Virus record (IMG/VR): IMGVR_UViG_3300021959_003912
Location: 1 to 47,051 of that record
Length of the DNA: 47,051 bases
Strand: one strand, 5' to 3'
DNA from: a virus
Part shown: positions 19,917-24,611 of the stretch, in pieces
How the letters are laid out: every line of letters starts with the position of its first letter
Position numbering within the stretch: the first letter of the stretch is position 1
The notes under the pieces: model-generated
Told to the model about the DNA's origin: nothing
The model's database searches: none
The model's input: only the letters and a program-made list of their open reading frames with translations
Program-made: the position numbers and the translations under genes

Positions 19917-19944
19917 TGATTTGTTCTCCATTTGGTATATGAAG

Positions 19945-22665: not shown

Positions 22666-23315
22666 GCCATCAATCCTTTTTTAGCTGTATCGTGTGCGTC
22701 CCAAAGCCTTTGGGTAAAGTCTGCGCTTAGGTATTGTTCAGCGCGGTTATTCATGAACTTCTGAAAAGATTGAACCGTATCTGCAAACTTTTGGGGGTCG
22801 CTTAATTCCTTGTAAAAGGTTAGCCAATTGTCTGCTACATCTTGAACCCTTAACGTCATCTGTGGATCGTTGTTTTTAGGTTCTGGGTTAATAGGGTTAA
22901 CCTCTGGCTCATTCACTTCCTCGGCCTCCTGAGAGGCTTGTGGTACATCTTCCCCAGCATAGATGTAGTGGCCCAGCCCATGCATCGCTATCGCTTTGAC
23001 AAGGCACCTCATACGCGCGTCATTGATTGCTCTGGCATCTGGGTTCTTAATAGCGCGATTTTGATGATCCATTACGGGCAACCACATCATATGTGATATT
23101 CCATCAATGGTTACGGTGCATCGAACCTCGCGCGTCTTATCTTCATACACGATATCTTCATGAACTTCGTATGATGATGTGCAAGAGTATTCTTTCACCT
23201 GTTGCCAAGCCCAAGCCCAAGACAGGTATTTGAAGCGACCTTTTTTTTCAATCTGGTCGTTTACGTTAATTGAACTCAGTTCGGCCCAAACCTCATGATT
23301 TACATCATCCGACAT
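22662..23315 (-). CDS. Sak/Rad52-like single-strand annealing protein
   Basis: 217 residues. YLSWAWAWQQVK, VRCTVTIDGISHMMWLPVMD and the block NPDARAINDARMRCLVKAIA then HGLGHYIYAGED are the signature of the DUF1071/SSAP_Sak family, a phage Rad52-type recombinase. The C-terminal third after a Pro/Glu/Asn linker is helical and variable. It would anneal complementary ssDNA together with the adjacent SSB. Its ATG overlaps the previous stop by 11 bases. Confidence 0.8.
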   Translation of the reverse strand: MSDDVNHEVWAELSSINVNDQIEKKGRFKYLSWAWAWQQVKEYSCTSSYEVHEDIVYEDKTREVRCTVTIDGISHMMWLPVMDHQNRAIKNPDARAINDARMRCLVKAIAMHGLGHYIYAGEDVPQASQEAEEVNEPEVNPINPEPKNNDPQMTLRVQDVADNWLTFYKELSDPQKFADTVQSFQKFMNNRAEQYLSADFTQRLWDAHDTAKKGLMA

Positions 23316-23574
23316 CTGGCTGTCCCCCCGTGATTGGTTGCGCTATAAGATTGTGGTTTGATTTTTTCCCCAGCCACAAATCGTGAGCGTTTACCCCCGC
23401 CTTTTTTAGCAGATCGTCTGCGCCCATTGGGAACTGTGCTTGTAGATATTCCTGATGGGTGAGTTCACCCTTTTCAGTTTTGGCAACCAACTCTGTCATA
23501 TAATTAGAGATCGCTATTGATATTTGATCTACAACAAATGACACTGGTGGGTGATCAGGCGTAGTTTTCGCCAT
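23305..23574 (-). CDS. First gene of the leftward recombination operon, unknown function
   Basis: 89 residues starting MAKTTPDHPPVSF with AGGAG seven to eight bases before the ATG (a longer in-frame frame has no ribosome site). Helical centre ISIAISNYMTELVAKTEKGEL and LTHQEYLQAQFPMGADDLLK, followed by a flexible end. No family recognised. Its leader carries the ATACCAAA element 21 bases upstream of the ATG. Confidence 0.5.
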   Translation of the reverse strand: MAKTTPDHPPVSFVVDQISIAISNYMTELVAKTEKGELTHQEYLQAQFPMGADDLLKKAGVNAHDLWLGKKSNHNLIAQPITGGQPDVG

Positions 23575-23608
23575 CGCTTTTCTCCTGTGATTTCTTTTGG
23601 TATCGCTA

Positions 23609-23637
23609 CAACTATGCCTTATTTGCAGAGTAGTCAA
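23609..23637 (-). promoter_or_regulatory. Minus-strand promoter candidate for the recombination operon
   Basis: TTGACT (23637-23632), 17-base spacer, TAGTTG (23614-23609, a weak -10). TGCAAA hexamers flank the -35 box at about 23 bases apart, mimicking the arrangement of TGTAA repeats in the promoter at 19945-19973. Confidence 0.35.
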
Positions 23638-23676: not shown

Positions 23677-23707
23677 AAAAAGGGCCAGCTACTGGAGCCG
23701 ACCCTTT
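23677..23707 (-). terminator. Rho-independent terminator on the minus strand
   Basis: Minus strand: AAAGGGTCGGCT, loop CCAGT, AGCTGGCCCTTT, with the T run TTTTT at 23681-23677. All 12 positions pair in RNA, two of them as G-U. On the plus strand those two become A-C mismatches and no T run follows, so the hairpin is built for leftward transcription. No minus-strand gene ends here. Confidence 0.65.
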
Positions 23708-23810
23708 AAGATACCAAAAGAAACACATGCACGTTGATCTAAGAGGAAGGACGCGCGTAACGCGATAAGATCAACCCACTTGGGAGGTTTCAAAGCCTCC
23801 TTAACACAAG
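23677..23810 (-). ncRNA. Candidate structured small RNA
   Basis: Upstream of the orphan terminator, reading leftward, are a GGAGG/CCTCC hairpin (about 23800-23783), then a perfect GTTGATCT/AGATCAAC stem (23775-23768 with 23740-23733) enclosing CGCGTTACGCG, then TTTCTTTTGGTATC, then the terminator. No convincing protein frame runs through. The TTTGGTAT stretch complements the ATACCAAA element in leaders of four minus-strand genes, with 14 perfect pairs to the leader of 23574. The 5' end is not defined. Confidence 0.35.
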
Positions 23811-23875
23811 ATGTTGTGCCAGACAATACAGTATGAGACGTAATGTTACATACTGATACATTATGGACACAACAT
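23811..23875. promoter_or_regulatory. Nested dyad / operator region upstream of initiator
   Basis: Two nearly coaxial inverted repeats: ATGTTGTG (23811-23818) with CACAACAT (23868-23875), and CAGTATG (23829-23835) with CATACTG (23849-23855); GTAA/TTAC lies at the centre. An extended -10 (TG then TACATT, 23857-23862) could serve the plus-strand initiator gene. ATGGACA occurs twice, at 23863 and 23881. It is likely an operator or control site between divergent units. Confidence 0.45.
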
Positions 23876-23900
23876 GTAGTATGGACATAGGAGGTACAGA

Positions 23901-24611
23901 ATGTCCCATTACATGACAGCACTGGCGATGAAGCAAAGGGGTTTAGCCCCAGCGACCAAAATTTTGCTATATTGGTTAGCGGATCACCACAATGCTGAAA
24001 CAGGCAAATGTTTCCCTAGCGTTAATCGCTTGGTGAAGCTGTGCGAGATGTCAAAGCGTTCAGTGCAAAATCATTTGGATGCCCTAGAGTTCATTGGTTT
24101 AATTGAAGTTGAAAAAGCCCATCGCGATAATGGGCAACAAACTGCCAATAACTACATTCTACACTTAGGCGATGAGGGGGTGCAGAATTTGCATGGGGAG
24201 GGTGCAGATATTGCACGGGGGAGGGTGCAGAATTTGCACCCCAATAACCTTGTAAGAAATAACCTTGGAAGTATTAACCAAGAATTATTTGCGCAATTTT
24301 ACTCTGCATATCCTCAGAAAAAGGGAAAGGGCGCAGCGGAAAAGGCTTGGGAAAAAGCAATAAAGATTAAAGACCCAAAAGAATTAATACAGGCTGCGCA
24401 AGTTTATGCTCAATTCTGTGAGGGTAAAGATAAGAAGTTTATTCCATACCCATCTACATGGTTAAATCAAAAGCGCTGGGAAGATGAGTTGGAACCAGAG
24501 CAAAGGCCCGCTACATCTACTGATCTTCTAAACTCTCTCATGTCTCCAGAAAGCGGTTGTCAGACCGTAAAGATAATCAGACCATTTGATAAGTATTTAG
24601 GGAAGGAATAA
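23901..24611 (+). CDS. Replication initiator, lambda O / DnaD-like with winged helix
   Basis: 236 residues. N-terminal winged helix (about 5-75): LAPATKILLYWLADHHN, CFPSVNRLVKLCEMSKRSVQNHL, EFIGLIEVEK, of the HTH_36 type. A low-complexity linker (VQNLHGEGADIARGRVQNLH) coincides with DNA iterons. The C-terminal domain FYSAYPQKKGKGAAEKAWEK...YPSTWLNQKRWEDE is common in phage O-like and DnaD-like initiators. It would bind the origin within its own gene and recruit host replication proteins. AGGAGG lies before the ATG. Confidence 0.75.
   Translation: MSHYMTALAMKQRGLAPATKILLYWLADHHNAETGKCFPSVNRLVKLCEMSKRSVQNHLDALEFIGLIEVEKAHRDNGQQTANNYILHLGDEGVQNLHGEGADIARGRVQNLHPNNLVRNNLGSINQELFAQFYSAYPQKKGKGAAEKAWEKAIKIKDPKELIQAAQVYAQFCEGKDKKFIPYPSTWLNQKRWEDELEPEQRPATSTDLLNSLMSPESGCQTVKIIRPFDKYLGKE
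24181..24290 (+). other. Candidate replication origin: three iterons inside the initiator gene
   Basis: TGCAGAATTTGCA at 24181-24193, TGCAGATATTGCA at 24203-24215 and TGCAGAATTTGCA at 24226-24238: imperfect palindromes spaced 22 and 23 bases apart and flanked by G runs. They are followed by AT-rich DNA with AATAACCTTG twice (24243, 24258) and CTTGG/CCAAG. The arrangement copies the lambda origin inside gene O. Confidence 0.6.

Follow-up and report, generated by a model that had tools for sequence, protein, structure and literature searches.

Why a leftward-pointing hairpin with a T run should lie between two divergent sets of genes is the question raised by positions 23677-23810 of the virus record IMGVR_UViG_3300021959_003912. 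The window, that is, the whole stretch of DNA analysed, is this 47-kb record (47,051 nucleotides, 45% G+C), in the sequence of which no terminal repeat was found. Genes diverge around the interval. Leftward from 23574 lie those for an 89-aa protein, a Sak-type annealing protein and SSB, and rightward from 23901 those for an O-like replication initiator and then terminase and portal, as assigned by Pfam and PHROG searches, which returned zero matches for the 89-aa protein. No integrase or CI-type repressor was found among the window ORFs scanned against PHROGs, a set that omitted some small ORFs. The original prediction placed a structured small RNA here, running leftward and ending near 23677, and the terminator together with minus-strand pairing in relatives supports such an RNA as the best reading of the sequence. 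The prediction had missed what the candidate RNA most likely does, namely pair in antisense fashion with the leader of the first leftward gene, and it is most likely this pairing that has been conserved.

On the minus strand, from 23707 to 23679, the terminator hairpin reads AAAGGGTCGGCT-CCAGT-AGCTGGCCCTTT, followed by TTGG. The 12-pair structure with its T run is real, as had been proposed, and is kept in relatives. Its folding energy makes it specific to the minus strand: -17.3 kcal/mol as minus RNA versus -9.3 as plus RNA in the window, and -16.8 versus -7.2 in relatives. Pairing in the minus RNA was far stronger in all relatives, and conservation is thus not confined to plus-strand pairing. 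The 161 bases from 23830 to 23670 fold on the minus strand with -53.7 kcal/mol (z -3.8; plus strand, z -2.3). It had also been claimed that no minus-strand gene ends at this point. A mechanical ORF (23922-23689) does stop inside the hairpin, but it is not a conserved gene, and a protein-coding reading of 23689-23922 on the minus strand was rejected because the relatives' alignment contains frame-breaking gaps. A plus-strand mini-ORF after GATACCAAAAGAAACAC (ATG at 23727) was likewise rejected, relatives being without the start codon. Within the interval no known RNA family scored above its gathering score (the weak match to STnc390 reached 20.4 bits versus a gathering score of 50), and no tRNA was found.

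A search with the replication protein returned 80 loci on viral contigs, 37 of which were distinct after removal of near-duplicates. A minus-strand terminator lies at most 260 bases from the rep start at 31 of these 37 distinct loci, compared with 1 of 37 for a plus-strand terminator and 2.7% in shuffles. Among cultured phages, rep relatives showed less than 60% identity; in each of the three regions opened, rep sat inside a rightward gene run. In many relatives, L005, L012, L014 and L018 among them, the space separating the terminator from the leftward genes holds a plus-strand gene for an HTH mini-protein (about 62-73 aa), so that no minus-strand gene ends at the terminator there either; this gene is missing from the window clade. 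The first leftward gene of many relatives encodes a protein of 60-90 aa, in several cases starting M-x-H-P-T-P, without a Pfam or PHROG match. Some relatives' first leftward proteins align with the 89-aa protein of the window.

Immediately ahead of the terminator stem lies a stretch, here termed the seed, that is complementary to the leader of the gene starting at 23574 over 14 + 4 pairs with one bulged base (Table 1). The match includes a 14-bp perfect inverted repeat (23591-23604 / 23710-23723). Both seed and target belong to one strand; about 100 bases separate them, a span that includes the terminator and a putative leftward promoter. Of the 46 start regions called on the two strands, the 23574 leader gave the best score (36), and the next two also belonged to leftward genes. 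An RNAduplex scan without loop limits proved too permissive and was dropped in favour of a stricter local scoring. The predicted accessibility of the seed in the window was 0.70 or 0.34, varying with the assumed 5' end.

Table 1. Features of the divergent region and of the leftward genes (window coordinates)
Feature	Positions	Strand	Remarks
O-like replication initiation gene (rep)	23901-24611	+	constant neighbour of the candidate RNA in relatives
Predicted hairpin GGCACAACATCTTGTGTT	23803-23821	-	predicted fold, alignment; may be inside the candidate RNA or upstream
Predicted hairpin GGAGG..CCTCC	23783-23800	-	predicted fold; near-identical in relatives
Predicted stem-loop GTTGATCT/AGATCAAC	23733-23775	-	predicted fold; stem sequence not kept in relatives
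Candidate antisense seed TGTGTTTCTTTTGGTATC	23710-23727	-	two bases ahead of terminator stem
Intrinsic terminator	23677-23707	-	12-pair hairpin 23707-23679, five-T run 23681-23677; conserved in relatives
Putative leftward promoter TTGACT-17-TAGTTG	23609-23637	-	read by eye
Candidate target site GATACCAAAAGAAA-T-CACA	23586-23604	-	leader of first leftward gene, reaching its Shine-Dalgarno AGGAG (23582-23586)
First leftward gene, proposed main target	23305-23574	-	89 aa
Possible further target GTACCAAAAAGGAACCACAA	22245-22264	-	ahead of start 22244
Possible further target GAAACCAAAGGAAA	20742-20755	-	ahead of start 20735
Possible further target TATACCAAATGGAG	19926-19939	-	ahead of start 19916
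Possible further target CACACCAAAGGAAA	19327-19340	-	ahead of start 19322

Few relatives of the same clade (clade A) were found: L011 (also L099 and L137), and L008 with L132, which are near twins. The seed core TGTGTTTCTTTTGGTATCTTAAAGGGTCGGCT is invariant in L008, L011 and L132, whereas the RNA's middle part has been remodelled. The full target is retained in L011; L132 has kept its central part and lost the edge (GAACC instead of GATACC), with the seed unchanged, and the L008 sequence stops short of the target. When a 17-nt piece of the seed was scanned over viral contigs and bacterial genomes, the matches outside this phage and its clade were all unrelated, with neither terminator nor target, and a search with the target protein for further members returned the same phages only. 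The original prediction had drawn attention to upstream stems instead. The stem GTTGATCT/AGATCAAC around CGCG-TTA-CGCG is indeed present in the predicted fold, but it is not kept in relatives; the loop element CCTTCCTC (23743-23750) of this stem-loop is. Judged by the relatives' sequences, the upstream stems are the less conserved part, and it is the seed and the terminator that are kept.

Farther toward rep, positions 23803-23896 hold conserved palindromes (CAGTATG..CATACTG in the window; CAGGATG..CATCCTG, altered on both sides, in L008, L011 and L132) and TGTCCAT repeats on the minus strand. A possible reading of these elements is an operator or an origin.

The correspondence between seed and target was scored across clades. 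Here, up to 60 bases ahead of the terminator and the region from -38 to +20 of the first leftward gene were taken from 21 loci in 11 clades, each RNA was scored against each target, and the cognate sum was taken over clades. A cognate sum of 283.5 was obtained, compared with 205.8 ± 14.3 for clade permutations, and none of 200,000 permutations was as high; the target starts had been located while pairings were being viewed, and the clades are not fully independent. The cognate target ranked first in its row for clades A, C, D, F, G and H and second for B and E (8 of the 11 clades), with a common motif in clades B and F and a weak result for clade E. Cognate pairing was absent in clades I, J and M of the 11 scored. 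Seeds differ between clades: in clade C the seed CCTTTTTACCTC stands against GAGGTAAAAATGG, in clade D CCTTACTTATTGCTA against TAGCAATAAATGAGG, and in clade H TCCATTTTTA is joined by another matching stretch that covers the start codon. One third-codon position in clade H co-varies in part (eight standard pairs, one wobble and two mismatches over 11 loci, many of them near-identical). Selection for base pairing would be expected to leave such a clade-wise joint change of seed and target. In the clade of L043 and L049-L060, a second part of the RNA also matches the beginning of the first leftward gene, spanning its start codon and first codons (GGGTGYGACAC with GTGTCACACCC).

Four further leftward start sites in the window are possible targets (Table 1). 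The TATACCAAATGGAG motif also precedes the same gene in L099 and L132, and CATACCAGAGGAAA precedes the counterpart of the 19322 gene in these two relatives. In the window, ACCAAA occurs in 6 of 14 leftward start regions and in none of the 33 rightward ones (p = 3e-4), compared with a background of 2.5%. With the first gene left out, the further-target score relative to shuffled seeds gave z values of 3.1 for the window, 2.2 each for L132 and L099 and 2.3 to 2.9 for clade C. Other clades mostly gave no clear excess, and further targets are unsupported in clades D to H; some non-cognate seeds score equally high because any CU-rich RNA fits Shine-Dalgarno sequences. Multiple targets as a general rule were rejected, support being confined to clades A and C (and L004 in clade B), and by these scores several targets are probable in clades A and C only. 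Separately, L031 and L069 have, at +1540 and +1664 from the terminator, respectively, a second gene start for an HTH-like protein, METQNAQILHYLKQ. This second start carries the GAAGGGAAAA site of the first leftward gene, which fits CTTTTCCCTTC of the RNA.

Scoring of the putative leftward promoter region favours CATAGT with a spacer of 15 over the TAGTTG read by eye, and the counterpart in L011 and L132 is TTGACA-16-TATTTA. A leftward mRNA from this promoter would begin close to the target site. Promoter-like hexamers also lie within the first rep codons, where lambda has pO (TTGCTT-17-TGTAAT in the window). With 95 of 300 recodings equally good, these hexamers do not exceed what conservation of the protein would yield, and protein conservation could account for them.

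Taken as a whole, we consider it likely that a leftward, intrinsically terminated non-coding RNA pairs with early leftward start sites and represses their translation. We infer a promoter and a transcript that would start somewhere within approximately 23757-23901, run leftward and end near 23677. In the cell, the stretch just ahead of the terminator would base-pair with the first leftward leader up to its Shine-Dalgarno sequence, and four more leftward genes with ACCAAA beside the Shine-Dalgarno would probably be paired too. Such pairing would exclude ribosomes, and early leftward functions would be repressed from the rep side of the divergent region. The role may be to shut off early leftward genes after the rep side has become active, or to confer immunity to a like phage.

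The best surviving alternative, which we nonetheless regard as unlikely, is a plain insulating terminator that blocks stray leftward transcription from the rep region into the leftward operon and involves no acting RNA. It would suit a terminator placed just upstream of the putative leftward promoter, and the promoter searches resolved none for the candidate RNA; however, it leaves unexplained both the invariant seed and the fact that in 8 of 11 clades the sequence beside the terminator is complementary to the first leftward start. A cis-antisense RNA that acts on the opposite strand in the manner of lambda OOP on cII, with the rep leader or, among relatives, the HTH-rep mRNA as its partner, appears decidedly unlikely. 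Although position and orientation are those of lambda OOP (PMC5869508), and in many relatives the plus-strand HTH gene ends near the terminator, the window clade has no plus-strand gene overlapping the RNA, and the relatives' terminator lies beyond the HTH stop codon with little or no coding overlap. Seed conservation and the match to leftward starts would again go unexplained. Cis-antisense action and pairing at leftward starts could, at the same time, coexist.

The perfect inverted repeat flanks the promoter region, and its two arms could be sites at which a protein binds on either side of the leftward promoter. Such a DNA operator is nevertheless highly improbable: in other clades the repeat differs, yet it always lies at a leftward Shine-Dalgarno or start codon on one side and just ahead of the terminator on the other, and an operator has no need to follow start codons. 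In the window, moreover, the motif recurs at other leftward gene starts inside the operon. That the RNA is chiefly aimed at host mRNAs, with the phage matches secondary, is scarcely credible, for although some phage sRNAs act on host genes, such as PreS on dnaN (PMC12197685), host targeting does not predict that the RNA should co-vary with phage start sites.

Pairing of the candidate RNA with leftward start sites on its own strand thus remains the reading that we prefer. To our knowledge, the phage antisense RNAs described so far are isolated examples from a small number of model phages. In the present case, many uncultured phages repeat a single arrangement in which the seeds are re-targeted, and this makes an RNA regulator and its targets readable from DNA alone. 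If this is true, the OOP position would be a general site of RNA control, and a single small RNA could act on several genes of a phage early operon. A broader proposal is put forward tentatively, and with more doubt than confidence: that there is a widespread RNA-switch family in uncultured phages, in which an RNA at the OOP position, through a clade-specific seed, shuts off early leftward genes (several in some clades) and co-evolves with their starts, the identity of the seed dividing co-infecting phages into immunity groups, in the way known for c4 of P1 and P7. The arrangement was not described in the literature found, which comprised open-access papers only.

In lambda, OOP (pO-oop-tO) is a short leftward RNA before O with an intrinsic terminator (PMC5869508). 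It overlaps the 3' end of cII, which is encoded on the opposite strand, and RNase III cleavage follows (PMC5869508, PMC12197685). The candidate RNA is likewise leftward, just before an O-like gene, with its 3' end at an intrinsic terminator. Unlike OOP, it would have same-strand start sites as partners rather than opposite-strand cII; in the window no plus-strand gene lies at 23677-23900, and the relatives' HTH gene ends ahead of the terminator. Scored against lambda leftward start sites, OOP reached at most 20, compared with 36 for the window RNA at the window's own start regions. The sar RNA of P22 is encoded opposite its target, with full complementarity. As an antisense RNA, it hinders the initiation of translation on the mRNA of a phage regulator (PMC12197685). 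By contrast, the present case involves two separate loci on one strand and an 18-pair match. PreS of lambda and VpdS of VP882 are short phage RNAs that use a seed on more than one mRNA (PMC12197685) and act, at least partly, on host RNAs with Hfq. The candidate RNA resembles these trans-acting RNAs in having its own terminator and a seed common to several mRNAs, the further targets being statistical only, and differs from them in that its predicted targets are the phage's own early genes. The c4 RNA of P1 and P7 is encoded ahead of its target, on the target's own strand. It blocks translation by pairing around the RBS of a phage gene, and differing c4 RNAs produce heteroimmunity (PMC12197685). 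The candidate RNA shares with c4 the predicted complementarity around the target RBS and the placement upstream of the target on the same strand. The c4 model RF01695 gave no match at the gathering score and none up to E 5 in the interval. Furthermore, a terminator and a putative promoter separate the candidate RNA from its target, several targets are likely, and the target protein is without a Pfam or PHROG match, whereas the target of c4 is an antirepressor (ant). On the features tested, the candidate RNA would act in the manner of c4 from the position of OOP, and it belongs to neither kind.
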